Positions 8,252-41,760 of a DNA stretch of 41,760 nt are shown piece by piece. Numbering within the stretch: the stretch's first letter is position 1; each line of letters begins with the position of its first letter. The position numbers were made by a program, and so were the translations under genes. The notes beneath the pieces are model-generated. The model ran no database searches, was not told the origin of the DNA, and saw only the letters and a list, made by a program, of their open reading frames with translations. Source of the DNA: a virus; IMG/VR virus record IMGVR_UViG_3300005663_000099, positions 1 to 41,760 of that record. The stretch is one strand, 5' to 3'.

Positions 8252-8718
8252 TGGCGACGACACCGACCACCACACCGTACGCGACCGAGGCGTTCGCGGA
8301 CATCTACTTCGGCGAGCGCCTGGACTCCGAGGCCTGGGACAACGCCGTCGCGGGCAACAAGGAGAAGGCGCTGAAGCAGGCGACGCACGACATCGACAAC
8401 CTGAACTTCGTCGGCAGCAAGACCGACCCGGATCAGGAGAACGAGTTCCCGCGCCGCGGCGACACGACCGTGCCGGTCGAGATCCAGGAGGCCTGCGCCG
8501 AGCAGGCGATCGCCCTGCTCGAGGGGCTGGCGATCAAGAAGCTGCACGCGAAGGCCGGCATCGTGAGCGAGAGGGTGGGCGACGCGAGCAGGTCGTACGG
8601 CGAGGCGGGGCGGACGAAGTTCCTCGAGGAGAACCTGGGACTGAGCAGCCAGGAGGCGCTCCGCAAGCTGTACGAGTGGATGGTCGACCCGAGGGACATC
8701 ACGCTGGAGCGCGTGTAG
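8251..8718 (+). CDS. DnaT-like head-tail adaptor family protein
   Basis: 155 residues resembling the phage family labelled 'putative DnaT-like ssDNA-binding', whose members sit in head-tail connector positions. The pattern seen is an aromatic start (YATEAFADIYF), a central QATHDIDNLNFVGSKTDP, then a charged segment before PVEIQEACAEQAIALL. The known members have the same order of an alternating helix, a WxG-type turn and an alpha-helical C-terminus. It is probably a connector or head completion protein rather than a replication protein. ATG overlaps the preceding stop. It sits before the scaffold gene, earlier than usual for an adaptor. Confidence 0.6.
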   Translation: MATTPTTTPYATEAFADIYFGERLDSEAWDNAVAGNKEKALKQATHDIDNLNFVGSKTDPDQENEFPRRGDTTVPVEIQEACAEQAIALLEGLAIKKLHAKAGIVSERVGDASRSYGEAGRTKFLEENLGLSSQEALRKLYEWMVDPRDITLERV

Positions 8719-8790
8719 AACGTATTCGTGCCTGCGACCGCGCGTCCGCCCAAGCGCGCGCTAGGCGTCGGGCAAAGAGGAGGGCATGCC

Positions 8791-8985
8791 ATGCCCAAGC
8801 ACACGGGAGGAGGCGTCACGTCCTTCAACAACCGGATCGACGGCCTTCCGTCGGCGGCGAAGGTCAAGGGCGACCGTCCGAAGCCGGGGCTCAAGGGCCA
8901 GCCCACCAGGGGCAAGGGGCTGGGGAGCAATCCGCAGGCCGCGGCCCGCAAGGGCTTCGAGGAGGCCCGCAACCCCCGCAGCTAG
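8791..8985 (+). CDS. Small basic Gly/Pro-rich protein
   Basis: 64 residues, MPKHTGGGVTSFNNRIDG at the start, then a disordered-looking stretch rich in Lys, Gly and Pro, ending in a short helix (AAARKGFEEARNPRS). The ATG at 8791 has GAGGAGGG at 8777-8784 six bases upstream, better than the upstream in-frame GTG at 8728. Not recognised. Its place between connector and scaffold genes suggests a minor head component. Confidence 0.6.
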   Translation: MPKHTGGGVTSFNNRIDGLPSAAKVKGDRPKPGLKGQPTRGKGLGSNPQAAARKGFEEARNPRS

Positions 8986-9088
8986 CGCTGCGCGCACCCG
9001 GACGATTCCGGGGAAGGCCTAACCGTCGGGCCTCGTACGGCGGGACGCACCGGACCGCGCGGGTAAACAGCGGGTGGAGAACACAACG

Positions 9089-9997
9089 ATGAGATTCACG
9101 CAGTGGGCAGAATCGGGAGGCTACGTTCCTTTCAACCTGGCGCCGGACTTTCGTATGGGCCACGTCAACGTCTACTTCTTCGCCGATGCCGGCGGGGGTG
9201 ACGGCGGCGGAGGCGGCGGAGGCGGCGACGGAGGGGATGGGGGTGACGGAGGCGGAGGCGGAGGGGGTGACGGGGGAGGCGAGCCGGGCGGAGGCGACGG
9301 CGGTGCGGGCGGCGGAAGCGGCGGCACCGATCTGAAGTTCAGCCAGGCGGACCTGAACCGCATCTCCAAGAAGGAGCGGGACAAGTACAACTCTGAGAAG
9401 CAGGTGCTCATCGACCAACTCAAGGACGTGGAGAAGCAGAAGGGTCTGAGCGACGAGGCGAGGGCCAACCTGCAGACCCAGATCCGCGACGCGGAAGAGT
9501 CGCTCATGACCGCTCAGGAGAAGTCCAAGGCCGAACTTGGGCGGGCCGCCAAAGTACACGGCGAGGCGCTCGACGTCGAGAAGAGTCGGGCGGATCTGAA
9601 CTGGGACATGTACGTCTCGGAGAAGAAGCGCGTCGCCATCTCCGCCGCGGCCAGCAAGCACGGCGCCTACAGGGCCGAGCAGCTGACCGCGGTCGTGGAG
9701 CCGATGACGGAGATCGTTCCCGTCAAGGACTCCAACGACAACATCATCGGCCACGACGTGATCGTCAAGGTCACGGAGAAGGCCGAGGATGGCACCACGA
9801 AGGAAAAGGCGCTGACCGTCGACGAGTACGTCGACGCGATGAGGGCCAACGAGGATCACGCCAATCTGTTCGTGTCCACCAAGCAGGGTGGATCAGGGTA
9901 CCGGCCGGGGACCAGTGGAACCCCGATCGGCGATCTTTCCAACATGTCCGCCACGGACAAAATCAGAGCCGGGTTGAAGGCGGGAACGAACCGCTAA
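9089..9997 (+). CDS. Probable capsid scaffolding protein with a long Gly/Asp linker
   Basis: 302 residues immediately upstream of the major capsid gene, the classical scaffold position. After about 30 N-terminal residues comes a low-complexity tract of nearly 50 residues of Gly and Asp (9181-9331), then charged coiled coil (LKFSQADLNRISKKERDKYN onward), a short beta segment, and a C-terminal tail ending TDKIRAGLKAGTNR that could bind capsid. Scaffolds of the GP20 type share the charged helix. The ATG at 9089 has GGAG nine bases upstream; a GTG at 9074 would overlap that site. The Gly/Asp tract is unusual for a scaffold. Confidence 0.65.
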   Translation: MRFTQWAESGGYVPFNLAPDFRMGHVNVYFFADAGGGDGGGGGGGGDGGDGGDGGGGGGGDGGGEPGGGDGGAGGGSGGTDLKFSQADLNRISKKERDKYNSEKQVLIDQLKDVEKQKGLSDEARANLQTQIRDAEESLMTAQEKSKAELGRAAKVHGEALDVEKSRADLNWDMYVSEKKRVAISAAASKHGAYRAEQLTAVVEPMTEIVPVKDSNDNIIGHDVIVKVTEKAEDGTTKEKALTVDEYVDAMRANEDHANLFVSTKQGGSGYRPGTSGTPIGDLSNMSATDKIRAGLKAGTNR

Positions 9998-10037
9998 CGG
10001 AGCGGCCCGTCACCGGCGTTTCGAGGAGGCCATTGAC

Positions 10038-10940
10038 ATGGCACTTTTGAAAGTCGAAGCACAGAAGCTGTCGAACGACATGCTCCGTGCGGGGGTGATC
10101 GAGAACATCATCACCTCCGACGAGGTGTTTTCGATGCTTCCGTTCATTCCGGTGAACGGGCGGACCTACCGCTACACGCGGGAGGCGACGTTGGGGAGCG
10201 CGAGCTTCATCGACGTCGGGGACACCATCACGGAGAGCGCGGCGACGTTCACCTCCGTGTCCGAGGATCTGCGCCGGATCGTCGGCGACGTGGACGTGGA
10301 CGAGTTCCTGCAGGGGACCCACTCCGACGCGACGGATCAGGCGGCGACGCAGATCAGCAAGAAGGCGAAGGTCGTCGGCCGCACGTACGCGGACCGCTTC
10401 ATCACGGGTGACAACGGCACGAACCCGAAGGAGTTCGACGGCCTCATCCAGCTCTGCCCGGCGGCGCAGAGTTTCCTCGTGGCGACGAACGGCGCGGCGC
10501 TGTCGTTCGACTTCCTGGACCAGCTGATCGACCTCGTGAAGATCGGCGGTCAGCGGGTGTTCATCATGAACAGCCGCACGCGCAGGGCGTTCATCAACCT
10601 GGCGAGGGGGGTCGGCGGAACGCAGCCGGAGACCCTCGTGGTCGAGGGCATCGTCGGGCCGGTCACGGCCTACCGCGGGATCGCGATCCTGCGGAACGAC
10701 TTCGTCCCGATCGACCAGGTGGCGGGAACGGAGACGGCCGCGACGACCGTCTTCCTCGCCGCGCTGGACGAGGACGAGGGCGTGGCGGGCCTGATGGCCC
10801 AGTCGCAGGCCGGCATCGAGGTCGAGGACGTGGGCCCGGTGCAGACCGAGGACGCGCGCCGCTGGCGCGTGAAGTGGTACGCGAGCCTCGCGCTCCACAG
10901 TGAGCTGGCCATGGCCTGCGCGACGGGCGTCAACAACTAG
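10038..10940 (+). CDS. Major capsid protein (HK97-fold, inferred)
   Basis: 300 residues preceded by a strong GAGGAGG site. Features fitting an HK97-type shell protein: an N-terminal helical arm, an extended E-loop-like region (YTREATLGSASFIDVGDTI), a spine helix with QISKKAKVVGRTYADRFI, and a beta-rich A-domain close to the C-terminus (RRWRVKWYASLALHSELAM). The substrate-like segment FIMNSRTRRAFINLARGVGG matches the common 'nmnsrt' region of phage capsid proteins. The scaffold precedes it and a strong hairpin follows, as often seen for the most abundant virion protein. Confidence 0.85.
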   Translation: MALLKVEAQKLSNDMLRAGVIENIITSDEVFSMLPFIPVNGRTYRYTREATLGSASFIDVGDTITESAATFTSVSEDLRRIVGDVDVDEFLQGTHSDATDQAATQISKKAKVVGRTYADRFITGDNGTNPKEFDGLIQLCPAAQSFLVATNGAALSFDFLDQLIDLVKIGGQRVFIMNSRTRRAFINLARGVGGTQPETLVVEGIVGPVTAYRGIAILRNDFVPIDQVAGTETAATTVFLAALDEDEGVAGLMAQSQAGIEVEDVGPVQTEDARRWRVKWYASLALHSELAMACATGVNN

Positions 10941-10963
10941 CAAAAGCTAGAGGTCAGAGTCAA

Positions 10964-10989
10964 CCTCCCTCGGGGAGACCCGGGGGAGG
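10964..10989 (+). terminator. Strong RNA hairpin after the capsid gene
   Basis: CCTCCCTCGGG pairs with CCCGGGGGAGG around a GAGA loop: 11 base pairs (one G-T) closed by a GNRA-type tetraloop. No T-run follows, so it is more likely an mRNA stabiliser, a processing site or a partial terminator that raises capsid over downstream expression than a full stop. Confidence 0.55.
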
Positions 10990-11019
10990 CTACCGTGATC
11001 TCTAACCTGGAGAACTGAG

Positions 11020-11319
11020 ATGGCAGCAGGCAACCTGGTACTGGGCCGCGAGTGGGCGACCATCGAGGTCGACGACACGTCGAAGTCGCTGGACTTCAAC
11101 AAGACCAACGGGTTCCTCGTGCACAAGTCCGGCGATCCGGTGTTCCTCCAGATGGGCGGGGACGGGTCCGCGATCCCGGTCACGGACGCCGAGGTCAAGG
11201 GCACCATCAGGATGGAGGCGGGCGACTCGGCCCCGCTGCCGAACGGGCCGGGCAAGGTGTTCCGCCAGTGCGCGGCCACTCAGTCGGCCAAGCTCCAGTT
11301 CTTCCCTAGCGTATCGTAG
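11020..11319 (+). CDS. Small capsid-adjacent protein, possible decoration protein
   Basis: 99 residues, beta-rich, beginning MAAGNLVLGREWATIEVDDT and ending in KLQFFPSVS. It follows the major capsid gene and its hairpin, the slot often held by head decoration or fibre-anchoring proteins. No family recognised. The ATG at 11020 lies 8 bases after a CTGGAG site. Its size and lack of charged tails fit a structural role, but the assignment is from position only. Confidence 0.6.
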   Translation: MAAGNLVLGREWATIEVDDTSKSLDFNKTNGFLVHKSGDPVFLQMGGDGSAIPVTDAEVKGTIRMEAGDSAPLPNGPGKVFRQCAATQSAKLQFFPSVS

Positions 11320-27107: not shown

Positions 27108-28481
27108 ATGGACAGTAAGAAGAGAGGCTGCCGAGGCTGCGGTAGTGCTCAGGCGGACCAACCGCCGGTTCTTGAACTGCGCGACGGTCAACTCGTTGAG
27201 GTGAAGCCCGCGCAGAAGAAGCGCTCGTTGTTGGATAGCGCTAAGGAGATGATCGAGGTTAAGCGCGGGGGTCGGGTTCAGGAGAAGTACCGCGCTGTCC
27301 GAGAGATGATCTGCCGCCATTGCCCGGAGGAGACATTCGACGATCGCGGCCGGCCGACAGGGGAGAAGCTCTTCCGCACCCACCTCAGGAGACCGTACTG
27401 TGGGGTTCCGTGGTACGGCAAACTGACGAAGCGCGACGTGCACCGCCTGGGTTGTGGGTGCAACCTCGACGACAAGGTCAAGTGGGAGGACTCAGCCTGT
27501 CCCCGCGGTAGGTGGGGACCTGGCAAGAAGTTCGGCGCCGGGGTCCACACGATATTCGATAACCGCAGCGAGGGGACGCTCGAAGGTGTGGCCGACGTTC
27601 ACGTCATGTCCAGAGACCACCAGCCAGACGTAACGGGCATCGGCGATACGTTAGCTTTCCTACCACTCATGCGCGCGTACGCGAAGGCCAATCCCGAGAC
27701 TCGAATCCGGTACGCCATCATGGGGGCGACGGAAGAGTGGGCCAGACTCGGCTACGACGATCTAACATTCGAGGACGACGGGGAGAGGGACCACGGGGAG
27801 CTGGACGTCTGGGGTTCTCACACGCACCTAGCCGGCATTGATCGGATCTGCGTGGAGAAGGGATGGGTCAGGCAAGAGTACTGGGCCGATCGACTCGGCG
27901 TGGAACCAGAGAAGTTCAAGCTGACCCCTGATCCTGAATGGCTGCTCCAGGAGAAGCAGGGATTGGCTGAGCCGCTACTCGAGGGCAAGCCAATCGTCGG
28001 GCTGTCGCCGTTCGCTTCGATGAACGTGCAGAGGACATGGCCCGCACACCACTGGCTCAAGCTGCTGCAGATGCTGCAGGACGAGGGGATCTACGTCTAC
28101 CTGCTGGACGGCCCCGATCAGCGCAGGACCGCGTGGTTCAACTGCGAGAGGCTGCTCGGAGTTCCTGCGGCCAGGGCCGTCGCGAGGATGAGCCTGACCA
28201 CCCTGCACATCGGCAACGACTCCGGGATGAATCACCTGTGCGGGCTGACGACGTCCAGGGGACTGGCGATCTGCGGGCCGACGAGGGGCGAGCAGGTCTT
28301 CGGGTGGTACGGTAACATCGAGACCATCCAGGCGGAGGGCTGGTGCGTGGGATGCTACTGGGAAACGGCGAAGGGATTCGCTCTCCCGTGCAAGATGGCC
28401 TGCGAACCGATGTGGGATCTGAAACCAGAAGCAGTGTTCCAGCGAGCACTGCAACTCATAGCAGAGGAGGACGAGGCATGA
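27108..28481 (+). CDS. GT9-like glycosyltransferase with N-terminal zinc-ribbon-like region
   Basis: 457 residues. Residues about 175-455 show the GT-B layout of family 9 (ADP-heptose:LPS heptosyltransferase type): GIGDTLAFLPLMRAYAKANP at the first nucleotide-binding loop, then KPIVGLSPFASMN, and the acceptor/donor signature HIGNDSGMNHLCGL followed by GPTRGEQVFG. Residues 1-140 are Cys-rich (CRGCG, ICRHCPE, LGCGCNLDDK, ACPRGRWG), a zinc-binding add-on often seen on phage members. It lies between tail tip and lysis-like genes, so it may glycosylate virion proteins or alter the host surface. The sugar is unknown. Confidence 0.75.
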   Translation: MDSKKRGCRGCGSAQADQPPVLELRDGQLVEVKPAQKKRSLLDSAKEMIEVKRGGRVQEKYRAVREMICRHCPEETFDDRGRPTGEKLFRTHLRRPYCGVPWYGKLTKRDVHRLGCGCNLDDKVKWEDSACPRGRWGPGKKFGAGVHTIFDNRSEGTLEGVADVHVMSRDHQPDVTGIGDTLAFLPLMRAYAKANPETRIRYAIMGATEEWARLGYDDLTFEDDGERDHGELDVWGSHTHLAGIDRICVEKGWVRQEYWADRLGVEPEKFKLTPDPEWLLQEKQGLAEPLLEGKPIVGLSPFASMNVQRTWPAHHWLKLLQMLQDEGIYVYLLDGPDQRRTAWFNCERLLGVPAARAVARMSLTTLHIGNDSGMNHLCGLTTSRGLAICGPTRGEQVFGWYGNIETIQAEGWCVGCYWETAKGFALPCKMACEPMWDLKPEAVFQRALQLIAEEDEA

Positions 28482-29278: not shown

Positions 29279-29480
29279 GGAAGTGAAGGGCTTCGCGCGA
29301 CTGGCGCAGCAGAGGGCAGACATAACGGTCAAGGGCGTGATGGTGAAACAAGCCGACGTGGGCGGTAGGGTGGTGCTGCTGGACTCCGACCTTGCCGCCC
29401 TCGTCAGGATCAAGCTGAGACTGCAGAAGATACTCGCTGATCCCGCGCTGAAGAGCGCGATCAACGCCAAGGGATTGTGA
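29145..29480 (+). CDS. Probable small lipoprotein (outer-membrane spanin candidate)
   Basis: 111 residues starting at TTG 29145, with a perfect GGAGG (29134-29138) six bases upstream. A hydrophobic segment (WIVVLMTWLTLTSSTGC) ends in a lipobox-like STGC, with Cys at residue 29, then comes a soluble domain with no further hydrophobic stretch. Embedding of a lipoprotein gene in another frame of a membrane-gene neighbour is typical of Rz1-type spanins. The first 134 bases overlap the preceding gene. The lipobox is not canonical (Ser at -3), so this is moderate. If a spanin, the host is Gram-negative. Confidence 0.55.
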   Translation: MKTPDRYLRTLTWIVVLMTWLTLTSSTGCLTRTTTVFVRSTRLPEEVKGFARLAQQRADITVKGVMVKQADVGGRVVLLDSDLAALVRIKLRLQKILADPALKSAINAKGL

Positions 29481-29493
29481 CGGAGGGCAGGAC

Positions 29494-29712
29494 ATGACCA
29501 GGAAGAAAGCCGGTAAGGCGAAGCGCAAAGCCAAGAAGGTGCAGCGCAAGGTGGGGAAAGTCCTCGGGGAGTTCAAACGAGGGACGCTCCGCAGCTCGTC
29601 TGGCAAGAAAGTGACGAGTAAGAAGCAGGCCATCGCGATAGGTTTCAGCGAAGCAGGCGCTTCGCGTAAGAAGAAGAAGGGGAAGAAGCGCAAGGCACGG
29701 CGCAGGAGGTAG
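29494..29712 (+). CDS. Small basic protein of the DUF6496 type
   Basis: 72 residues. The core GEFKRGTLRSSSGKKVTSKK followed by QAIAIGFSEAG matches the short conserved family found in phages and bacteria next to structural genes, whose function is unknown. Both ends are Lys/Arg runs. A strong CGGAGGG site precedes the ATG. Nucleic-acid binding is likely from the charge. Confidence 0.7.
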   Translation: MTRKKAGKAKRKAKKVQRKVGKVLGEFKRGTLRSSSGKKVTSKKQAIAIGFSEAGASRKKKKGKKRKARRRR

Positions 29713-29714
29713 CT

Positions 29715-29831
29715 ATGGCGTCCCACCTCGGACGTAGCACATCACGCAAACCACCCAAGCGGAGGCGCAAGGCCCAGGTACGCAGCAGGAGTCGCGCGAA
29801 GAAAAGAAAACGCAGACGCATGCGTCGGTAA
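29715..29831 (+). CDS. Protamine-like micro-protein
   Basis: 38 residues, ATG at 29715 with AGGAGG (29704-29709) five bases upstream, two bases after the previous stop, ending TAA at 29829-29831. Sixteen residues are Arg and six Lys; the end is KKRKRRRMRR. The perfect ribosome site and tight spacing support it. It is the last gene before the second control region. It may neutralise DNA in the head. Function unknown. Confidence 0.55.
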   Translation: MASHLGRSTSRKPPKRRRKAQVRSRSRAKKRKRRRMRR

Positions 29832-29840
29832 AAGTGTACA

Positions 29841-29931
29841 GGTAATTGCGCTCTACCCCTAGCCCTAGGGGTAAGCCCTACCCCCTCACACCCAGGCGTT
29901 CGGGACCTAGCCCCCTACGTACGCAATTACC
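29841..29931. promoter_or_regulatory. Inverted-repeat control element, copy 2
   Basis: GGTAATTGCG (29841-29850) is perfectly inverted as CGCAATTACC (29922-29931), with 71 bases between. The right arm lies in a block from 29920 (TACGCAATTACCGTAACAA, then CAAGAATAGAAGGAAG) that matches 401-438 closely. Together with the shared promoter, this makes 29841-30102 a diverged copy of 314-683. A regulator that loops or bridges two sites is one reading. Confidence 0.6.
29854..29873 (+). terminator. Hairpin between structural and replication operons
   Basis: TACCCCTA pairs with TAGGGGTA around GCCC: 8 perfect base pairs, 23 bases after the last structural gene. No T-run follows, but a second CCTACCCC at 29877-29884 could pair with the GGGG in an alternative fold. 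It may end or slow transcription of the structural operon. Confidence 0.45.
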
Positions 29932-30013
29932 GTAACAACCACAAGAATAGAAGGAAGCACAACAAAGGAAGCGAGCGCAGGTAAACGGACCGTAAAACTG
30001 ATTTATTAAGAAG

Positions 30014-30042
30014 TGTACTTATGGTCTTTTACGTGGTATAAT
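30014..30042 (+). promoter_or_regulatory. Sigma-70-type promoter of the replication operon
   Basis: TGTACT (30014-30019), 17 bases, then a perfect TATAAT (30037-30042) in GGTATAATGTAG. The preceding ATTATTAAG-like block and TTTACG within the spacer match the promoter at 589-617. It lies 78 bases before the helicase gene. The leader between has a hairpin GGTGG/CCACC (about 30065-30080) and the shared CACGCGCACATTAC block. Confidence 0.75.
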
Positions 30043-30119
30043 GTAGATCCACGCTTGAGGGAGGGTGGCACAAAACCACCGGGTTCTTCACGCGCACATT
30101 ACGAAGGACGGAGAGGATC

Positions 30120-31952
30120 ATGGGAATCATGCAAGAGGAAGTAACGAAGACGAAGCTGTTCACGCTCTCGGTTTACGACGAGCGGCACTTCATCCTCCAC
30201 TTCGCGTCGCTCGACGCGGAGACCTACAACTACGCTCACGGGCTGGTCGCTGGTTTTCCCGAGCGTAGGTATCGCAAGTCCATCAACGCCTGGATCATCC
30301 CGTTCACCGAATCAACGTTCGACTACCTCGCCCTCAAGTTCACCGATGAGGAGTACGAGGTGGACTCGGATGCGCGTGTGGTCATCGACTACCACATGCG
30401 GACCCGCGAGTCGCTGAGCAAGAAGGAGATGCGCCGTTGGGAGTACGTGTTCGACGGTAAGGTGCCGGAGATCAAGCACGAGCCGAGGACGAAGGCGTAC
30501 AACCACCAGACTGTGTGCCTCGACGCATGGCACGGATCCGAGTACTTCGGTGTGCTCATGGACACTGGCGTCGGGAAGACTTGGGTCGCGGTGAACGAGG
30601 CCTGCTGGTCCGCGAACGAGAAGGTCGCGGCTGGGGGGTCGGCGTATAAATTGTTGATCGCCTGTCCAAAGTCTCTGCGCGGTACGTGGATGGCGCAGCT
30701 GAACGAGCACCTGCCCGAAGGCTATCCTTATTGGGTGAAGCGCGTGAGGGGTGGTCGGGTCTACGCAGTTCAGGACTGCATCAACTTCGTCAAGGTCAAG
30801 GACTACAAGCTCAAGGTTTTCATCTGCTCGTACGAGCAGGTCAAGAACATGCAGGAAGAACTCATCAAGATGAAGTTCGACCTGTTCGTGCTGGACGAGT
30901 CCACCCACATCAAGAACCCCGGTGCCAAGCGCACGAAGGGCTGCAACGAGGTCGGGGACTCGTGCTCGCGAAGGGCGATCATGACCGGCACGCCGGTTGC
31001 GAACAACGTCCTCGACCTCTACTCGCAGTTCAGGTTCCTGCAGGACGGGTGCCTCGGCTACGACACCTACAAAGGATTCAAGAACCGTTACGCGGTCGTG
31101 TCGCGACTCGAGAGTGGGTGGGAGCAGATCCAGGGTTATCAGAACATCGAGGAGCTCAAGCACCGTATGGCGAAGTGCTCCTTCGTCGTGCGCAAGAAGG
31201 ACTGCCTCGACCTACCTGAGAAGCAGTACATGCTGCACCCCGTCGAGATGGGACCTCGTCAGCAGTCGATGTACGATCAGATGGCTCAGCACTTCCTCAC
31301 TACCCTTGAGGAGGACATGAGCACGGTCGTCGGCGAGGGAATGGTGTCGGCAAAGATCATCCTCACGCAGTACCTCCGCCTCTCGCAGATATGCTCGGGC
31401 TTCGTCAAGACCGAGGAGGGCGACGAGGTAGGCATCAAGGACGGCGACGTCAAGCTGCAGCTGCTCAAGGAGCTGGTCGAGACGTTCGACCCGAACAACA
31501 AGTTCATCGTGTGGTCGCGGTTCACGTGGGAGGTCAACGCCATCACGGACCTGCTCGACGCCATGGGCGTCGGTTGGGGTAGGCTGAAGGGCAAGGACAG
31601 CGAGAAGAAGCGGGACGCGGCGATCGAGGGATTCAATCGTGACGACCTCGACGTGAGAGTGATCGTCGGAGACCAGGGTTGCGGGGGATACGGACTCACG
31701 CTGCTCGGCACGAAGGACCACCCCAACTCGGACATTATCTACCTGAGCAATGACTTCTCCTCGCTCAAGCGCGGACAGTCGGAGGATCGCGGTCACAGGA
31801 TCGGGATGCACGGCACCGTCACGTACCACGACATCGCCTGCGAGGATTCGATGGACTACGTGATCGCCAAGAGGTTGCAGAGCAAGAAGGAGATGGGCGA
31901 CCTGGTGAAGGACTACGAGTCGATACGGAGGCTTCTGCTTGGCCATGCCTAG
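30120..31952 (+). CDS. SNF2/DEAD-type superfamily 2 helicase
   Basis: 610 residues. ATP-dependent DNA translocase: motif I MDTGVGKTW (about 147-155), motif II LDES (258-261; DEST instead of DEAH), motif III MTGTPVANN (about 288-296), and in the second RecA fold a motif VI-like region SLKRGQSEDRGHRIG. The order and spacing match SNF2-type phage helicases that remodel forks or displace proteins. It is the first gene of the replication operon, preceded by GGAGAGG. The MCM-like protein downstream is the more likely main fork helicase. Confidence 0.85.
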   Translation: MGIMQEEVTKTKLFTLSVYDERHFILHFASLDAETYNYAHGLVAGFPERRYRKSINAWIIPFTESTFDYLALKFTDEEYEVDSDARVVIDYHMRTRESLSKKEMRRWEYVFDGKVPEIKHEPRTKAYNHQTVCLDAWHGSEYFGVLMDTGVGKTWVAVNEACWSANEKVAAGGSAYKLLIACPKSLRGTWMAQLNEHLPEGYPYWVKRVRGGRVYAVQDCINFVKVKDYKLKVFICSYEQVKNMQEELIKMKFDLFVLDESTHIKNPGAKRTKGCNEVGDSCSRRAIMTGTPVANNVLDLYSQFRFLQDGCLGYDTYKGFKNRYAVVSRLESGWEQIQGYQNIEELKHRMAKCSFVVRKKDCLDLPEKQYMLHPVEMGPRQQSMYDQMAQHFLTTLEEDMSTVVGEGMVSAKIILTQYLRLSQICSGFVKTEEGDEVGIKDGDVKLQLLKELVETFDPNNKFIVWSRFTWEVNAITDLLDAMGVGWGRLKGKDSEKKRDAAIEGFNRDDLDVRVIVGDQGCGGYGLTLLGTKDHPNSDIIYLSNDFSSLKRGQSEDRGHRIGMHGTVTYHDIACEDSMDYVIAKRLQSKKEMGDLVKDYESIRRLLLGHA

Positions 31953-33824: not shown

Positions 33825-34145
33825 ATGAGAAACTGCGCCATAGGTGGATGCGATCAGCGGCACCCGGACGTGTGCCCGAGCTGCACGCACTGGAATCCGT
33901 CTACCGGAAGCCGCTACTACTTCTGCGCGAGGTATCAGGCCTCGAGGGCCACGTGCGATCTACCGCACGAAGCCTGCGCGACCTGCGACTACTTCGAGGG
34001 CGATCTGTCCCGCACCATGGGGCCAGGTCGTCCGAACATGAGCGGCATCGATTGGAACGACCCAGAGCACGTCCGCAAGTACTACCGCGAGAAGATGCGC
34101 AGACGTCGAGCCAACGCGAAGCTGGCGGAGGGATTCGAGGTATGA
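33825..34145 (+). CDS. Cys-rich, probably zinc-binding protein
   Basis: 106 residues. The first 65 carry eight cysteines in pairs (CAIGGC, CPSC, FCARY, ATC, ACATC), consistent with one or two zinc knuckles; the rest is a basic helix (KYYREKMRRRRANAKLAEG). ATG at 33825 has only a weak GGGG upstream and lies 16 bases after the structured RNA, so translation may be controlled by it. It overlaps the exonuclease gene (TATGA). A nucleic-acid-binding role is likely. Confidence 0.65.
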   Translation: MRNCAIGGCDQRHPDVCPSCTHWNPSTGSRYYFCARYQASRATCDLPHEACATCDYFEGDLSRTMGPGRPNMSGIDWNDPEHVRKYYREKMRRRRANAKLAEGFEV

Positions 34146-35146
34146 GCGAGTTCATGCTGATCGACGGTTCGCTCATGGCCTACCGCTACTACGAAGCGAT
34201 GCCGGACCTGTCGAACAGTTCAGGTACGCCGACGAACGTGGAGTACGGGATGCTCCGCGGTCTCGAATCCCTGGAGCGGAAGTACCCCGACGCGCAGCTC
34301 GTGCTGGTGTGGGATTCTCCCAAGGCCAAGAGCGAGAAGCAGAAGATCGACCCGCTGTACAAGGCGAACCGCTCGCCCGGCGGCAAGCGCGGTCTGTGGT
34401 CGCGGCTGGAGAGGTTGAAGGAGCGCGTGATCCGGCACAGGTGGGCTAACGCGAAGCTGGACGGGATTGAGGCCGACGAAGTAATGTACAGCATCGCACG
34501 CCACCTTGCACCGGCCTACCCACACGAGACCAACATCCCTTCCAAGAACCTAGTGCTCCTGTACACGAACGACGAGGATCTGCTGCAGACGATCACCGAC
34601 AATATCATAGTGCTCAAGTCCCACCAGTCCAAGATATTCGAGTGGGACGGGGAGAAGGTAGTGGAGAAGTTCGGCGTCCACCCACACCAGCTCCCGCTAC
34701 TCCGCGCGGCACTCGGTGACAAGTCCGACAACCTGCCTGGATGCGGATGCCTCGGCCGGCCGAAACTCGCGCAGGCCGTACGCGAGGCGTTCAAGGTCGC
34801 CTTCGAATCACGTCAAGTTTCAGCTGGTCCTGCCGACCTCGTCAAGAACATCGCGGAGAACCACGTCACGTGGTTCGGCCCTAAGACCAGGGTCAAGTGG
34901 GACGGCTTCGTGGCTAGCGGCCAGCTCCACCGCAACTTCGAGCTGATGCAGATCAGGCTCAACCCCGACGTCGAGACCGAGCGGGAGTTCTACCGCAGCA
35001 ACCACGTGCGGAAGGTGACCATGCTCTGGGTGGAACCCACGCTGGAGGTCGAGCCGGTGGCGGAGGCCCTGGCCGAGTGGGAGATCAAGTCGCTGCGGAT
35101 GTGCAAGGAAGTGTTCGCGAAGGCGGAGGACGACGAGGAGTTCTAG
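34142..35146 (+). CDS. FEN-type 5'-3' exonuclease
   Basis: 334 residues. Removes RNA primers and 5' flaps; it is the separate 5' nuclease that family A polymerases of this type need. The metal-site residues are recognisable: MLIDGSLMAYRY (Asp8), VLVWDSPKAKSEKQ then YKANRSPGG (arch), GIEADEVMYSIA, LLYTNDEDLLQ, and the helix-3-turn-helix entry ALGDKSDNLPGCGCLG (190-205). The C-terminus ends AKAEDDEEF, an acidic tail with terminal Phe. ATG overlaps the upstream stop; its stop overlaps the next GTG (TAGTG). Normal length. Confidence 0.88.
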   Translation: MSEFMLIDGSLMAYRYYEAMPDLSNSSGTPTNVEYGMLRGLESLERKYPDAQLVLVWDSPKAKSEKQKIDPLYKANRSPGGKRGLWSRLERLKERVIRHRWANAKLDGIEADEVMYSIARHLAPAYPHETNIPSKNLVLLYTNDEDLLQTITDNIIVLKSHQSKIFEWDGEKVVEKFGVHPHQLPLLRAALGDKSDNLPGCGCLGRPKLAQAVREAFKVAFESRQVSAGPADLVKNIAENHVTWFGPKTRVKWDGFVASGQLHRNFELMQIRLNPDVETEREFYRSNHVRKVTMLWVEPTLEVEPVAEALAEWEIKSLRMCKEVFAKAEDDEEF

Positions 35147-37989
35147 TGGCTGACGTCAACGAGACCCTGGCCTGGCTCGAGCAGTTTGACGTGCACGGCG
35201 AGTCGATAGGTGAGGACGAGTTCAAGACCCTGTGTCCGTTCCACGAGGACACGGAGCCGTCTTGCTCGATCAACCTAGACAAGCGTGTATTCAAGTGCTA
35301 CGCGTGCGGAGCACAGGGCGACATCTTCAAATTCCTGGCTGGGAAGATCGGCAAGTCTAAGTCGGCCGTCCAGAAGCTGCTCAAGATTCAGAGTGCGGCA
35401 GGCGACCTCGACACCATCTCGCCTGACCTGATCCTCAAGTGGCACCGCGATCTGCGGGCGTCGAAGAAGTGGCTGAACGTCCTGAAGGGCAAGGGCATCG
35501 AACCGCAGACGGTGGACGACTACCTGCTAGGGATCGACGGTAAGCGCATCACCATCCCGGTGAAGAACAGAGCCGGCGACTTCGTCAATGTCCGCAAGTA
35601 CAAACCCAACGCTGTCGCGACAGACAAGAAGACGATCAACCTCAAGGGGTACGGCAACGCGATGCTGTACCCTATGGAGGCTCTGGGCTTCGACGAGATC
35701 TTCGTAACGGAGGGCGAGTGCAAGGCTCTCCTGCTGAACCAGCTCGGGTTCCCGGCTGTGTCTCCGACTGGTGGAGCTGACACGTGGTCCGAGTCCTGGA
35801 ACCTGCACTTCGCCGACAAGCGCGTGGTGGTGATCTACGACATAGACGACGCCGGCAGAGCCGGCGCGAACCGAGTGGCCAAGAACGTCTACCCCGTCGC
35901 CACCGACGTCCGGGTGGTCAGACTTCCCATGTCGCGCAAGGAGTACCGCAAGGGTGACATAACGGACTTCGTCGTGGCGCTTGGCCACGGCGCCGAGGAG
36001 ATCCGCAGGCTGGTCGAGAACTCCGAGCCGTGGTCTCCTTCCATCTTCTTCGACGAGGGGGAGGTCGAAGACGAGAAGGTTCACACGATGCACCTGGCGA
36101 AGTCCTCGTCGGCCAAGTACTCCGGCAAACTGGTCGAGAGCGAGGTGGTCGTAAGCGCGAAGGACGTCGCTCCGTACATCGTGCCGAAGAAGTTCGAGGT
36201 CAAGTGCACGAAGGACAAGGAGATCTGCACGATCTGCCCCATCTTCAATTCCAAGGACGAGGGCACGGTCACGATAGACAACAAGCACCCGGTGCTGCTC
36301 GAGATGCTGAACATCCACAAGGACAAGCTGGCCCGCGTACTCCAACGGGCGGCGAGCATCCCGAAGCAGTGCGACGTCTGCCGATTCAAGATCATCGAGA
36401 CGGTGAACATCGAGGAGCTCCGCCTGGTGCCCCAGCTCGGTATCAGCACGACCGAGGAGGAGCACGTCGCGAAGCGCGCATTCTACGTCGGCTACGGGAT
36501 AGAGACGAACAGCCCGTACGTCATCAGGGCCAGGGTAGTCCCGGAGCCGAACACGCAGTACGCGACGATGATCGTCTACGAGGCCGAGGCCGCGCAGGAT
36601 TCGCTGAGCACGTTCAAGCTCACGGAGAAGATGGCCAGGAGGCTGATGAAGTTCCAGCCGGACGCCTGGACCGAGGCCAGCGTGGATCAGAGACTCGACG
36701 AGATCTACGAGGACCTGGAGGCCAACGTCACCAGGATCTACCAGCGCCGGGACATGCACCTGCTAGTGGACCTGGTCTACCACTCCGTGCTCTACATCCC
36801 ATTCCAGGGGAAGAACGTGAAGGGGTGGGTCGAGGGCATCATCCTAGGCGACTCGGGCCAGGGCAAGTCGGAGACCGCGTCGCTGATGCGGAACCACTAC
36901 AGCCTCGGCGAGAAGTTCGACACGAAGGGGGCGACCGCGGCCGGTCTCCTGGGCGGAGCGATGGAGACGGCCAAGAGGTGGTTCATCACGTGGGGGATCA
37001 TCCCGCTGAACGACAGGCGCCTCGTGATACTCGAGGAGATCAAGGGGATGAACCCCGAGGTCATCGCCAAGCTCACGGACATGCGGTCGTCGGGCGTCGC
37101 GGAGATCGTCAAGATCGAGAGGGCGAAGACCAACGCCAGGTGCAGGCTGCTCTGGATCAGCAACCCCCGCGCGGACAAGCAGATCATGTCGTACAACTTC
37201 GGGGTGGGGGCGATCAAGGAACTGATCGGCTCGCTCGAGGACATACGCCGATTCGACATCGCGATCCTCGTCGCGTCCGGCGAGGTCGACAAGAAGTGGC
37301 TCAACGTGTCGGACAAAGACCGTCCGAAGATCAAGGCCACCTACGACCAGGAGTTGTGCCGCTCGCTCGTGCTGTGGGCCTGGTCGATGGATCCGAAGTC
37401 GGTTAGGATAGACGACGACGCGCAGGCTCAGCTGCTCAAGTACGCCGGCGAGATGGGCGACAAGTACTCGTCGCAGATACCGCTAGTGGAGACGGCCGAC
37501 CACCGGCTGAAGCTGCTCCGCCTGTCGGCGTCCCTCGCCGCACGGACGTTCTCAACCGATAACGGAGGGAGCAGCCTGACCGTGCGCAAGTGCCACGTCG
37601 ACTACATCGCGAATTTCATGGACAAGCTCTACTCCTCCGCTGTGTTCGGCTACAACACGTTCAGCGACCTGCTACGGGGCGAGGACTCGCTGCACGACGA
37701 GAAGGAGATAATCAACGAGCTGTCCGCCATCCCCCACGCGAAGGACACGGTGAGATCGCTCCTCGAGAGCAAGGGCATCACGGTCTTCGACATAGCGGAC
37801 CTGACCGGGATGGACATGGACAAGTGCCGGGAGCTGATCGGGTTCCTGGTGCGGAAGAACGCGCTGAAGAAGGGCAGGCGGGCGTACGTGAAGTCGCCGG
37901 CGTTCATCGCCCTGCTCAAGCGACTCCAGCTCGGCGACGAGTTGGAGAACAGGACGGCGGCAGACATCACTGGCGAGGAGGAGTTCTGA
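35146..37989 (+). CDS. DnaG-type primase fused to an MCM-like AAA+ helicase
   Basis: 947 residues from GTG 35146. Residues about 25-65 are a CHC2 zinc finger (Cys30, His33, Cys51, Cys54). About 130-290 is a TOPRIM primase core (FVTEGECKALLL, Glu189; YDIDDAGRAG, Asp232-235). A middle region has two CxxC pairs (361/364, 409/412) as in the zinc subdomain of MCM N-termini. The helicase part has Walker A GDSGQGKS (568-575), GATAAGLLGG, Walker B LVILEE (626-631; Glu-Glu for Asp-Glu), RCRLLWISNPR (sensor) and IRRFD (700-704, arginine finger). Phage primase fusions normally carry a DnaB/RecA-type helicase. C-terminal winged helix follows, then GEEEF. Overlaps neighbours at both ends. Confidence 0.82.
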   Translation: MADVNETLAWLEQFDVHGESIGEDEFKTLCPFHEDTEPSCSINLDKRVFKCYACGAQGDIFKFLAGKIGKSKSAVQKLLKIQSAAGDLDTISPDLILKWHRDLRASKKWLNVLKGKGIEPQTVDDYLLGIDGKRITIPVKNRAGDFVNVRKYKPNAVATDKKTINLKGYGNAMLYPMEALGFDEIFVTEGECKALLLNQLGFPAVSPTGGADTWSESWNLHFADKRVVVIYDIDDAGRAGANRVAKNVYPVATDVRVVRLPMSRKEYRKGDITDFVVALGHGAEEIRRLVENSEPWSPSIFFDEGEVEDEKVHTMHLAKSSSAKYSGKLVESEVVVSAKDVAPYIVPKKFEVKCTKDKEICTICPIFNSKDEGTVTIDNKHPVLLEMLNIHKDKLARVLQRAASIPKQCDVCRFKIIETVNIEELRLVPQLGISTTEEEHVAKRAFYVGYGIETNSPYVIRARVVPEPNTQYATMIVYEAEAAQDSLSTFKLTEKMARRLMKFQPDAWTEASVDQRLDEIYEDLEANVTRIYQRRDMHLLVDLVYHSVLYIPFQGKNVKGWVEGIILGDSGQGKSETASLMRNHYSLGEKFDTKGATAAGLLGGAMETAKRWFITWGIIPLNDRRLVILEEIKGMNPEVIAKLTDMRSSGVAEIVKIERAKTNARCRLLWISNPRADKQIMSYNFGVGAIKELIGSLEDIRRFDIAILVASGEVDKKWLNVSDKDRPKIKATYDQELCRSLVLWAWSMDPKSVRIDDDAQAQLLKYAGEMGDKYSSQIPLVETADHRLKLLRLSASLAARTFSTDNGGSSLTVRKCHVDYIANFMDKLYSSAVFGYNTFSDLLRGEDSLHDEKEIINELSAIPHAKDTVRSLLESKGITVFDIADLTGMDMDKCRELIGFLVRKNALKKGRRAYVKSPAFIALLKRLQLGDELENRTAADITGEEEF

Positions 37990-38327: not shown

Positions 38328-38752
38328 CACAGGATGACAGGGCCGACAAGTTCGACATCGCCGACGAGAGGGTGAGGGTGGATCTGCTGCCGTCCCACCC
38401 GCTGGTCGAGATCGCGAAGGTGCTCACCCACGGCGCCGGGAAGTACGGGGCGGACAACTGGCGACGGGGCCTGGAGTGGAGGAGGTACTACGGCGCGGTG
38501 ATGCGTCACATGCTCGCGTGGGAGGGAGGCGAGGACCTGGACCCGGACAGCGGACTGTCCCACCTCGCGTGCGCGGGATGCAACGTCCTCTTCCTGATCG
38601 AGATGGCCAGGACGCGACCGGACCTGGACGACAGGTTCAAGTACAAGGCCGAGCTGATCGGCGACTCCGACGTCAAAGTTCGCTACCTGCCGCGCAGTCC
38701 GCTTCAGACGGGAGGCATCGCGCATGGCGCGGACCCTGATACAGACAGCTGA
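38324..38752 (+). CDS. dATP/dGTP pyrophosphohydrolase-like protein (MazZ-type, DUF5664)
   Basis: 142 residues from ATG 38324 (AGGAGGGG upstream, ATGA overlap). The sequence follows the DUF5664 pattern: RVDLLPSHPLVEIAKVLTHG, AGKYGADNWRRGLEW, RRYYGAVMRHMLAWEGGED and LSHLACAGCNVLFLIE. Characterised MazZ proteins hydrolyse dATP/dGTP in phages that replace adenine with diaminopurine, but the family is also common in ordinary phages, and no PurZ is in the window. The last 29 bases overlap the polymerase gene. Confidence 0.75.
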   Translation: MTQDDRADKFDIADERVRVDLLPSHPLVEIAKVLTHGAGKYGADNWRRGLEWRRYYGAVMRHMLAWEGGEDLDPDSGLSHLACAGCNVLFLIEMARTRPDLDDRFKYKAELIGDSDVKVRYLPRSPLQTGGIAHGADPDTDS

Positions 38753-40622
38753 GCAGCTCCCGCGGTTCGATCCGAAGGAGCCGCTGTTCGTCGACCTGGA
38801 GACCACCTCCTTCGACGACGGCGAGCCGGCGTTCCAACCGTTCAAAGGTCACAGGGCGGCGGGCTACGCGATCTGCACGGCGGACGGGAGGGACGCCTGG
38901 TACCTCCCGCTCCGCCACCACGGGTCGGACGTGGCCGAGAAGGTCAACCACAACTTCGATCTGAAGCAGGCGCAGTCCTGGCTCCAGGGCGTGATCGGCT
39001 CCGGCCGGGACATCCACAACCACAACATCAAGTTCGACGGGCGCTTCTGGCACTTCGACGGGTGCGAGGCGAAGGGCAGGCTGGTGGACACGCTGGTGCT
39101 CGCCCGCCTGGTCGACAACGACCGGGTGGCGTACGGCCTGAACGCGCTGACCGGATCCAAGACCGACGAGGACATCAAGGCCTACCTGAAGTCCATCAAG
39201 TCCAAGGACTACGGTCGCGTGCCGATAGACCTCATGGCCAGGTACGCGATGAACGACGTGGTCATCACGCAGAAGCTCGAGGTCGAGCTGCTGAAGAAGC
39301 TCCGGCCGGAGACCGCCCCCGTGTGGGACGTCGAGCAGAGGCTCACCAGCCAGCTGCTCAAGTGGGAGATACACGGGATACGGGTTAACAAGAGGCGGCT
39401 GGCTAAGGCATGGAGGGTCAGGCTGGAGCAGGCCATAGGCCTGGAGGAGCAGGTCCACGAGGCAGCGGGCGTGGTGTTCGACGTGAACTCCGACAAGGAC
39501 GTCACGCGGGTGATGATAGGGAAGCTCGGCATCGAGCCGGTCGCCTGGACCAAGTCCAAGAACCCGCAGTGGAACAAGGAGGCGCTGGCGATGATCCACC
39601 ATCCCATCGCGCGCCTGCTGGCGGAGTGCAGGAGGGAGTACCACTTCTGCTCGCTCTTCTGCGAGGGCTGGCTGAAGAGGATCGGCGACGACGGGAGGAT
39701 GCACGCCAACTTCAACCTGGGTGGCACGAGGACGGGGCGCCTGTCGTCCAGCGACCCTAACCTGCAGAACTCCAACGACGACGCGAAGCAGAACATCGAC
39801 GCGGACGAGGACTGTGACATAGTATCCAGCGACTTCTCGCAGATCGAGTACAGACTCTTCGGCCACTACGCCGGGGACAGGGAGATCATCGCGGCGTACG
39901 CCGCGAACCCCAATCAGGATTACCACCAGGCCCTCGCCGACATGCTCGGCATCTCGAGGCAGGTGGCGAAGACCATGAACTTCGCGTTCATCTACGGGAT
40001 GGGAAAGCGCAAGCTGCTGAGGAAGCTGTCGGTGATGATGGCCCACGAGTCAGAGGACTCCGCGATGATCGCGAGGCTGACGTCGTTCCTGCCGAACTAC
40101 GACGGGCACGAACTGCAGGAGGCGGACTACGACAAGATCGCGTCGAACGTCTTCGACACCTACCACAGGAAGATGCCCGCGGTCCGCAAGCTGACGCGCC
40201 GGGTGAAGGACAAGGTCGAGGTCCACGGCTACCTCCGTAATTGGAGGGGGCGGATCTACAGGTTCCCGGATCCGCAGTACAGCTACAAGGCGCCGAACTA
40301 CCTGATCCAGGGATCGGCCGCGGACATCTTCAAGGAGAGGCTGCTCGCCGTCCTCGAGCAGTTCCCCTACGCCCGCCTCGTGACGAACGTCCACGACGAC
40401 TGCGTGTTCTCCGTGCCGAAGGACATGACGGAGGAGTTCGTCCGCGAACACCGCAAGGTGCTCGTCGACGTTCAGCCGGTTGAGGGGACGAAGCCGCTCC
40501 GAGTTCCGATGGTCGTCGAGACGAAAGTCAGCAGCAGGGTGTGGGGACAAGCGGTGAAGGTCGGCGACGACGGAGACGTGGCCAAGGCCCTCGCGGAAAG
40601 TGAGTTCGGGCACGCGGCGTGA
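38724..40622 (+). CDS. Family A DNA polymerase with 3'-5' exonuclease
   Basis: 632 residues. The replicative polymerase. Exonuclease residues: FVDLETTSF (Asp24, Glu26), HNIKFDGRFW, YAMNDVVITQKL. Polymerase motif A SSDFSQIEYRLFGHY (catalytic Asp370), motif B RQVAKTMNFAFIYGMG (Lys416, Phe420, Tyr424) and motif C VHDDCVF (Asp558, Asp559; Asp in place of the usual Glu). No 5' nuclease domain, in line with the separate FEN gene. GGAGG (38711-38715) sits eight bases before the ATG. It is the last large gene of the replication operon. Confidence 0.93.
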   Translation: MARTLIQTAEQLPRFDPKEPLFVDLETTSFDDGEPAFQPFKGHRAAGYAICTADGRDAWYLPLRHHGSDVAEKVNHNFDLKQAQSWLQGVIGSGRDIHNHNIKFDGRFWHFDGCEAKGRLVDTLVLARLVDNDRVAYGLNALTGSKTDEDIKAYLKSIKSKDYGRVPIDLMARYAMNDVVITQKLEVELLKKLRPETAPVWDVEQRLTSQLLKWEIHGIRVNKRRLAKAWRVRLEQAIGLEEQVHEAAGVVFDVNSDKDVTRVMIGKLGIEPVAWTKSKNPQWNKEALAMIHHPIARLLAECRREYHFCSLFCEGWLKRIGDDGRMHANFNLGGTRTGRLSSSDPNLQNSNDDAKQNIDADEDCDIVSSDFSQIEYRLFGHYAGDREIIAAYAANPNQDYHQALADMLGISRQVAKTMNFAFIYGMGKRKLLRKLSVMMAHESEDSAMIARLTSFLPNYDGHELQEADYDKIASNVFDTYHRKMPAVRKLTRRVKDKVEVHGYLRNWRGRIYRFPDPQYSYKAPNYLIQGSAADIFKERLLAVLEQFPYARLVTNVHDDCVFSVPKDMTEEFVREHRKVLVDVQPVEGTKPLRVPMVVETKVSSRVWGQAVKVGDDGDVAKALAESEFGHAA

Positions 40623-40807
40623 GGCTTGGCGCAGTACCTATACCGCACTGGTGTATCTCCTCGCGGGACATGCCCAGAGGGGACCTGGGGAAGCGGTCAG
40701 AATGGTCATCCGGAGTCCGTAGGATAGCCGCCACCGAGATCCGCCAGTCTCGGGGTAGGATTACAAGCCCGGGGGCCAAAGGGCCAAATCTGAGGGGCAG
40801 GGGCTAG
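40619..40807 (+). CDS. Doubtful short ORF after the polymerase
   Basis: 62 codons from a GTG overlapping the polymerase stop to TAG just before the terminator. The composition is Arg/Gly/Ser-rich without clear structure and no ribosome site is convincing. The stretch also contains possible RNA hairpins (CCGAGA/TCTCGG, about 40734-40755), so it may be untranslated. Confidence 0.25.
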   Translation: MRLGAVPIPHWCISSRDMPRGDLGKRSEWSSGVRRIAATEIRQSRGRITSPGAKGPNLRGRG

Positions 40808-40830
40808 TTAGGACGCGTCCTAAAGTTTTT
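40808..40830 (+). terminator. Rho-independent terminator of the replication operon
   Basis: The perfect 16-base palindrome TTAGGACGCGTCCTAA (40808-40823) can form a 6-base-pair stem with a CGCG loop and is followed by AGTTTTT. The stem is short, but the T-run and location after the polymerase gene support termination. Confidence 0.6.
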
Positions 40831-40851
40831 CAAGTTTCTCAGGTTTTCTAG

Positions 40852-40880
40852 TGTACAACGCGAGAGGTGCGGTGTATATT
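40852..40880 (+). promoter_or_regulatory. Promoter of small-gene cassette 1
   Basis: TGTACA (40852-40857), 17 bases, TATATT (40875-40880). The spacer ends GCGGTG, exactly as in the promoter at 41213-41241. The same -35 core TGTAC occurs in the replication promoter at 30014. Confidence 0.65.
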
Positions 40881-40935
40881 GATACAGGTGAATGACATGA
40901 ACGAACACAACACGACACTACGAGGAAAACGAACC

Positions 40936-41211
40936 ATGCGAACTGAAGAACGCAAGCTCTGCGAAAAACTCTTCCACGTCAAAGTCATCCGCTTCAGTGG
41001 AAGCTACCGCGTCGCGGTGTTCGACTTCAGCTACAATCAGACACTCGAGGGAACGTCGATGAGCCAAGGCTCACGCCGTTCGAAGTACATCAACGACCTT
41101 CCCTTCGCATCGAGAGACGAAGCACAGAAGCTCGCGAACGCATACGCATCAAGCGCGTCCTACGAGACGAAGAGCTTCCGTCATTGGAAGCACAAAAACT
41201 TTCAGATTTAA
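40936..41211 (+). CDS. Small unknown protein, cassette 1
   Basis: 91 residues, MRTEERKLCEKLFHVKVIRF and on; alpha/beta with a basic, aromatic C-terminus (SFRHWKHKNFQI). I chose ATG 40936 because the 25 bases before it (ACGACACTACGAGG...) and the first codons ATGCGAAC match those of the next cassette at 41285, and a GAGGA lies nine bases upstream. An ATG at 40897 with AGGTGA is a possible longer form. Function unknown; codon use is less GC-rich than in the main operons. Confidence 0.6.
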   Translation: MRTEERKLCEKLFHVKVIRFSGSYRVAVFDFSYNQTLEGTSMSQGSRRSKYINDLPFASRDEAQKLANAYASSASYETKSFRHWKHKNFQI

Positions 41212-41212
41212 T

Positions 41213-41241
41213 TGTACATCCGCGGATTCGCGGTGTATGAT
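41213..41241 (+). promoter_or_regulatory. Promoter of small-gene cassette 2
   Basis: TGTACA (41213-41218), 17 bases ending GCGGTG, TATGAT (41236-41241). It begins two bases after the cassette 1 stop codon and parallels the promoter at 40852 in sequence and spacing. Confidence 0.65.
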
Positions 41242-41284
41242 AGTAAGAGTGAAACGCACGACGACACTACGGAGGACACGGGAC

Positions 41285-41470
41285 ATGCGAACAAAGAGAA
41301 TCATCAACGTCAAACAACAGCCGAACGGATCGACGCCTGAAACCAATGGGCCGTTCGTGTATCTCGTCAAGAAGTTGACGAATGTCACGACGCCACACAT
41401 CGGCAAGGCGACCACTCAGCGACAAGTCTTGGAGCTCATCAACAGAGGCATCACGGTCAACGTGGCTTAA
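41285..41470 (+). CDS. Small unknown protein, cassette 2
   Basis: 61 residues from ATG 41285, with GGAGGA eight bases upstream: MRTKRIINVKQQPNGSTPET, then a beta/helix part (GPFVYLVKKLTNV; QRQVLELINRGITVNVA). The text 'THIGKATTQRQVLELI' resembles no family I know. The leader and start are homologous to cassette 1, but the proteins are not obviously related. Function unknown, perhaps an early host-interaction gene. Confidence 0.6.
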   Translation: MRTKRIINVKQQPNGSTPETNGPFVYLVKKLTNVTTPHIGKATTQRQVLELINRGITVNVA

Positions 41471-41531
41471 GGTACGGCGCGAGCGTCGCGTCGACATCAC
41501 GAAGTAGGCACGAAGAACGGAGGGCACGGGT

Positions 41532-41741
41532 ATGGGAAACACGGAGGTGGTGGCGAGGCTTCGCGGACTCCTCGTCAAGGTCAAGGACGCGGTCGCCGAG
41601 GGGGACGACATGAACAAGGACATCGACCTCCACGCCGCGGTCCTCGACGCCTCGGACATCGAGTTCGACGAGATCCGCGAAGAGCTCTCGGAAGTCGAGA
41701 GCAACCTCGAGCAGATCATCGAGGACGTCGACGGCGACTGA
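41532..41741 (+). CDS. Small acidic helical protein
   Basis: 69 residues, nearly all helix with an acidic C-terminus (EVESNLEQIIEDVDGD). CGGAGGG lies ten bases before the ATG, in a leader like that of cassette 2 (ACGGAGGGCACGGG). No promoter of the TGTACA type was seen in the 60 bases upstream, so it may be read from the 41213 promoter. Not recognised. Confidence 0.55.
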   Translation: MGNTEVVARLRGLLVKVKDAVAEGDDMNKDIDLHAAVLDASDIEFDEIREELSEVESNLEQIIEDVDGD

Positions 41742-41760
41742 TCGCCCGTCGGCAAACGCT

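Follow-up and report, generated by a model that had tools for sequence, protein, structure and literature searches.

The viral contig IMGVR_UViG_3300005663_000099 of the IMG/VR database (41,760 nucleotides, all of them analysed and here called the window) encodes a protein in which a DnaG-type primase is joined to an MCM-type AAA+ helicase. This fusion protein is quite probably the replicative primase-helicase of the phage. The fork role is suggested by the profile and fold matches of the helicase half to MCM, the conservation of its ATPase residues, the lack of a DnaB match, the presence of a phage polymerase, the gene order, and the replacement of the DnaG part by an archaeal-eukaryotic primase (AEP) in relatives. 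A preliminary description, made from the letters alone, had read the gene as a CHC2 zinc finger and TOPRIM primase core followed by an MCM-like module in a phage. Both halves were recovered in our searches, and matches to terminase (phrog_38) and portal (phrog_145) families identified the contig as that of a tailed phage. The pairing would amount to what the description called a hybrid fork engine.

The helicase half was matched by the Pfam MCM family (PF00493) over residues 554–710 (5e-6; 26.2 bits against a cut-off of 23.3), and PF00493 was the sole AAA+ family in Pfam matched by all 11 relatives. We searched two profiles against the PDB sequences, one built from 11 cultured-phage and plasmid relatives and the other from 54 relatives. 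With both profiles, the AAA+ part matched MCM sequences exclusively, and the 54-relative profile matched SsoMCM at 1.7e-18. In PHROGs, residues 305–924 matched phrog_18685 at 1.1e-89.

The motifs quoted in the preliminary description were all found, namely GDSGQGKS (residues 568–575), GATAAGLLGG (595–604), LVILEE (626–631), RCRLLWISNPR (665–675) and IRRFD (700–704). A conserved lysine, K656 (47/54 relatives), aligned with the lysine of the SsoMCM pre-sensor-1 hairpin. Two CxxC pairs had also been proposed at the place of the MCM zinc subdomain. Cysteines are indeed located in this region, but C412 is not conserved, and the set kept in 48–51 of the 54 relatives is C354-x6-C361-x2-C364-x44-C409. 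A Paenibacillus larvae-type lineage (L008, L011, L083, L085, L086) lacks these four cysteines of the N-terminal tier (N-tier).

The AlphaFold model of the full protein had a mean predicted local distance difference test score (pLDDT) of 89.8. VIA-align placed residues 310–842 on residues 65–607 of SsoMCM with a Z of 29.0 and a root-mean-square deviation (rmsd) of 6.2 over 459 residues. A shift of one tier relative to the other is the probable source of the large rmsd, because an MCM chain comprising only the C-terminal tier aligned at 3.0 Å over 312 residues. When residues 306–486 were folded alone (pLDDT of 92.9), all 50 matches listed were MCM N-domains (Z 12.2–13.5); this tier was not reported by the sequence profiles. 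The MCM-type inserts on which the preliminary description had made its reading depend, the helix-2-insert and pre-sensor-1 hairpins, were both present in the model together with the MCM N-tier. Since the N-tier, hairpins, arginine finger, sensor 2 and winged helix were all seen, the MCM part is complete in the predicted structure, from the N-tier through the AAA+ domain to the winged helix (Table 1).

Table 1 Features of the primase-helicase gene and of its main neighbours in the window.
Feature	Position	Strand	Residues	Basis or remarks
SNF2/UvsW-type helicase	30120..31952	+		second helicase of the replication module; PF00176 1.5e-24
5'-3' exonuclease, FEN type	34142..35146	+		upstream partner gene; PF02739 2e-26
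DnaG-type primase/MCM helicase fusion	35146..37989	+	947 aa	GTG start, stop 37987-37989, frame open
CHC2 zinc finger	35215..35382	+	24-79	Pfam Zn_ribbon_DnaG 2.7e-13; ligands C30, H33, C51, C54
DnaG catalytic-core N-terminal subdomain	35422..35640	+	93-165	DNAG_N matched in 3/11 relatives
TOPRIM domain	35695..36033	+	184-296	Toprim_2 2.3e-4 over 186-262; PDB DnaG matches
MCM N-terminal tier	36070..36603	+	309-486	OB-like barrel and putative zinc-type subdomain
MCM AAA+ ATPase	36604..37671	+	487-842	Pfam, PDB profile matches, VIA alignment
Walker A GDSGQGKS	36847..36870	+	568-575	G568, G573, K574 invariant in 54 relatives
Helix-2-insert beta-hairpin	36952..36993	+	603-616	DSSP strands 603-608, 611-616; between beta-2 and Walker B
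Walker B LVILEE	37021..37038	+	626-631	E631 in 53/54; position 630 D in 44, E in 10
Pre-sensor-1 beta-hairpin	37096..37134	+	651-663	DSSP strands 651-654, 660-663; before sensor 1
Arginine finger	37249..37251	+	R702	EDIRRFD (MCM SRFD); invariant, 54/54
Sensor-2 arginine	37519..37521	+	R792	R in 47/54, K in 7/54; aligned to MCM LIR helix
C-terminal winged helix-turn-helix	37699..37896	+	852-917	DSSP helices and two-strand wing; one MCM row aligned to 917
Family A DNA polymerase with 3'-5' exonuclease domain	38724..40622	+		likely replicase partner; PF00476 4.3e-56, PF01612

The primase half was equally recognizable. When the 54-relative profile was searched against the PDB sequences, residues 13–309 aligned with the DnaG structure 2au3 at 6e-28, and residues 10–300 matched 'DNA primase' families in PHROGs. 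The four CHC2 ligands are all present in the window protein and are kept in 43–50 of the 54 relatives. Its TOPRIM residues are E189, E191, D232, D234, D271 and D274, and K193 replaces the usual aspartate, which is found in 47 of the 52 relatives having a letter at this position. Two other records (L058, 7797–9950; L059, 7725–9887) contain unfused MCM helicases preceded by an N-terminal DnaG-core-like stretch of ~100 aa. Neither a TOPRIM nor an AEP domain was found elsewhere in these two records, where the primase has apparently decayed and been almost wholly lost.

The MCM module is not always preceded by DnaG. In Bacillus phage vB_BboS-125 and B. velezensis plasmid p3, it lies behind an AEP domain (PF01896, best 3.4e-10), and nine metagenome loci likewise have AEP in front of the same module. 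No TOPRIM match was obtained anywhere in the AEP-type records tested, and DNA_primase_S (AEP) had no match in the window. Our tree contained 81 distinct MCM modules, some near-copies counted, of which 63 were joined to DnaG, 11 to AEP, 4 were unfused and 3 were truncated. After four long-branched rows were left out, a branch with a support of 96 separated the AEP forms from all others, so a single exchange between DnaG and AEP, in either direction on this unrooted tree, suffices. In the full tree, the long-branched L080, a DnaG form, fell inside the AEP group. We do not claim a second primase swap from this position, as AEP forms one clade once the four long rows are removed.

The polymerases of the carriers also vary. 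PolA was found in 18 of the 36 carrier records and Pol III alpha in 15, with both in none and exactly one in 33. The Pol III alpha carriers form one clade (support 99). The Pol III alpha (DnaE-like) gene is split in two in Microbacterium phage Hiddenleaf (L003, 19865–23216) and Arthrobacter phage Wollypog (L009, 11800–15676), and it is an open frame of ~1,050–1,180 aa in several metagenome carriers. The preliminary description had noted no DnaB-type helicase, in agreement with our finding that DnaB_C had no match in the window, a linear and possibly incomplete contig of 41.8 kb; the control search was positive in 14/14 reference genomes. DnaB_C was also matched in 0/36 carrier records, a count covering MCM carriers only. 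Because DnaB is absent from the carriers while primase (DnaG or AEP) and polymerase (PolA or Pol III alpha) vary, we infer from these sequences that the MCM module is the fork helicase and the part kept constant across these phages, with the primase and polymerase interchangeable. The possible loss or change of priming in some lineages and the near invariance of the key ATPase residues likewise mark MCM as the essential part. Polymerase swapping among phages is already known (PMC11348598), and our literature search found no description of swapping around an MCM helicase.

To find relatives, we searched phage records and genome collections. A tblastn search with the window protein yielded 99 phage records, 47 of them spanning at least 80% of the protein. 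The AAA+ part alone was found in 50 phage records (36 Microbacterium, 7 Bacillus, 2 Arthrobacter, 2 Paenibacillus, 1 Weizmannia and 2 other). The genes were mostly annotated as 'DNA primase' or 'DNA primase/helicase', and in some cases as 'DNA primase small subunit' or 'DNA directed DNA polymerase'. An alignment-based scan of the viral contigs in IMG/VR gave 80 loci, compared to no relative in a single-sequence scan. The GTDB scan gave at least two matches, one of them nearly full length in a metagenome-assembled genome, and we therefore claim no cellular distribution. In one locus (L063), the primase-MCM gene is split (7739–9283 and 9959–11257), with a gap of ~675 bp at the junction of N-tier and AAA+ domain. 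The gap is not a recognised intron, since Rfam gave no match in L063; it gave none in the window either. These searches point to a large phage family, apparently not described before, in which the DnaG-MCM pairing is widespread.

In the window, the GTG start of the fusion gene (35146) overlaps the TAG stop of the upstream nuclease gene. The replication module consists of the SNF2-type helicase, a Pam3 gp34-like protein, the FEN-type 5'-3' exonuclease and the primase/MCM, followed downstream by a small dUTPase/MazG-like protein, a dATP/dGTP diphosphohydrolase-like protein and the family A polymerase. We counted the order of nuclease, primase/MCM, dNTP enzymes and polymerase in favour of a fork primase-helicase. 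Shortly upstream of the module is a glycosyltransferase family 9 (heptosyltransferase-like) gene (27108–28481). A 40-nt direct repeat (75%) at 40904–40943 and 41253–41292 contains a ribosome-binding-like stretch and an ATG, and perhaps represents duplicated leaders of small ORFs. A search for origin repeats near 29480–30140 and 40600–41760 gave short, weak families only.

By homology, six copies of the protein would form an MCM ring around the leading-strand template. The ring would travel 3'-to-5' with the N-tier leading, which is the reverse of T7 gp4 and DnaB, both moving 5'-to-3' on the lagging strand. Because of its attachment to the N-tier, the primase would then be positioned where the excluded lagging-strand template exits the fork. 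There it could lay RNA primers, to be extended by PolA in this phage or by Pol III alpha in the sister clade, and the upstream FEN-type nuclease could clear them. This outline of ring formation, loading, polarity and priming is drawn from homology; for CMG, movement 3'-to-5' on the leading strand with its N-tier first is established, while T7 gp4 moves 5'-to-3' (PMC12593628). On balance, we lean towards a chimeric replisome, in which a DnaG primase sits at the front of a leading-strand MCM ring that is paired in one clade with Pol III alpha, the primase and polymerase being exchangeable cassettes.

Several observations weigh against a primase-helicase acting at the fork. An SNF2/UvsW-type helicase is present in 31/36 carrier records, the DnaB_C count was restricted to carriers, and our literature search found no biochemistry for the DnaG-MCM family. 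The TOPRIM domain is also variable: E189 is A or G in 15/54 relatives from several lineages, and the motif reads EGExK or GGExK in the window's clade (window 35701–35730; L014, L015, L018, L019 and L002 = MW202657), compared to EGExD in most relatives. EGExD is also the motif of T7 gp4. In the window's clade, every full-length member has K for D193, three of five have G for E189 (alignment A2), and CHC2 ligands are lost in L015. It is possible that the primase chemistry has been lost or changed in this clade; with its motif altered, the window copy may have little or no priming activity, and priming may have been lost or altered in some lineages. This would suit an arrangement in which MCM is the fork helicase and the DnaG part of the window's clade is a DNA-binding or loading tier without priming, host DnaG or transcripts providing the primers. 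The reduced primase stretches of L058 and L059 point the same way, but the window protein retains six acidic TOPRIM residues and all four CHC2 ligands, and we regard such an arrangement as conceivable yet distinctly the less likely one.

The SNF2-type helicase raises another possibility, that the protein is an initiator which melts the origin and primes once, with the SNF2/UvsW-type helicase or host DnaB driving the fork. Certain phage AAA+ proteins do serve as initiators. However, SNF2/UvsW proteins are SF2 translocases or branch-migration enzymes rather than ring fork helicases, the SNF2 match is absent or weak in the AEP-type records, and the modelled module has a complete MCM unwinding apparatus, so that an initiator role alone appears improbable. 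The identity to solved MCMs is just ~12–18% in the structural alignments, as might be expected if the AAA+ part belonged to another clade and resembled MCM in its motifs only. This is very improbable given that MCM alone was matched by 11/11 relatives in Pfam and in the PDB profiles, with the N-tier and inserts in agreement; D5/SF3, Lon-like and VirE families had no support among curated families or PDB sequences, although a list of fold matches filled by MCM does not by itself exclude other AAA+ clades. Although the fusion occurs in a single copy in the window record, an assembly or annotation artefact is refuted by dozens of independent phage records in which the two halves are fused in the same order, with more than 60 distinct sequences, and we consider its probability negligible. 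We favour the fusion protein as a replicative primase-helicase.

Phage MCM, AEP-MCM fusions and primase-helicase fusions such as T7 gp4 are already known. In the literature searched, which did not include the survey of Kazlauskas 2016 (NAR), neither the joining of DnaG to MCM nor its spread or its combination with Pol III alpha was described. If the chimeric replisome is real, an archaeal-eukaryotic-type helicase works with a primase and a polymerase of bacterial kind. In the usual view, bacterial primases partner RecA-fold lagging-strand helicases and MCM partners AEP primases. A natural DnaG-MCM fusion, together with the exchange of DnaG and AEP on one MCM and of PolA and Pol III beside it, implies that these components are not locked into 'bacterial' and 'archaeal-eukaryotic' sets. 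It also raises the question, in cultured phages of soil bacteria, of whether a ring moving 3'-to-5' can have its lagging strand primed by a primase carried on the N-face, and a single-chain primase-MCM would offer a compact system in which to study the MCM mechanism.

Like T7 gp4 and its T7-like and Twinkle relatives, the window protein has in one polypeptide a zinc finger and a TOPRIM primase at its N-terminus and, behind them, a helicase of a ring-forming kind, and the T7 gp4 structure 1nui was among the profile matches of the family's primase half. The hallmark of the T7 gp4 type, a RecA/DnaB-fold helicase, is replaced by MCM. The helicase of T7 gp4 is, as the preliminary description had it, of the RecA fold, and it runs 5'-to-3' on the lagging strand (PMC12593628), whereas for an AAA+ MCM with an N-tier the expected course is 3'-to-5' along the leading strand; the same 2025 review calls T7 gp4 unique in combining both activities in one polypeptide. 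The SCCmec Cch/Cch2 helicases resemble our case in being 3'-to-5' AAA+ helicases with a primase on a bacterial mobile element, Cch being called MCM-like, but there the proteins are separate and the primase is non-DnaG (PMC7581432), a distinction made here by description only. MCM in phages and AEP-MCM fusions of bacterial mobile elements, e.g. the PrimQH family with MCM, have been reported (PMC5862659), and the preliminary description had stated that known prophage MCM fusions carry AEP-type primases. In these fusions and in the window protein alike, a bacterial virus or element joins a primase domain to an MCM helicase, but the DnaG/TOPRIM primase of the window protein is unrelated to AEP. 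The MCM of a Bacillus cereus prophage, reportedly described by McGeoch and Bell in 2005 and Samuels in 2009, was taken here as a further AEP-MCM comparison. For phrog_18685, which matches the helicase half and is without function in PHROGs, we propose the MCM role. Compared to cellular MCM (SsoMCM, Mcm2-7), the modelled protein has the same N-tier fold, helix-2-insert and pre-sensor-1 hairpins, arginine finger, sensor 2 and winged helix, and it differs in its C-x6-C-x2-C-x44-C cysteines, its Walker A of GD(T/S)xxGKS instead of GDPGTAKS, and the primase in front.

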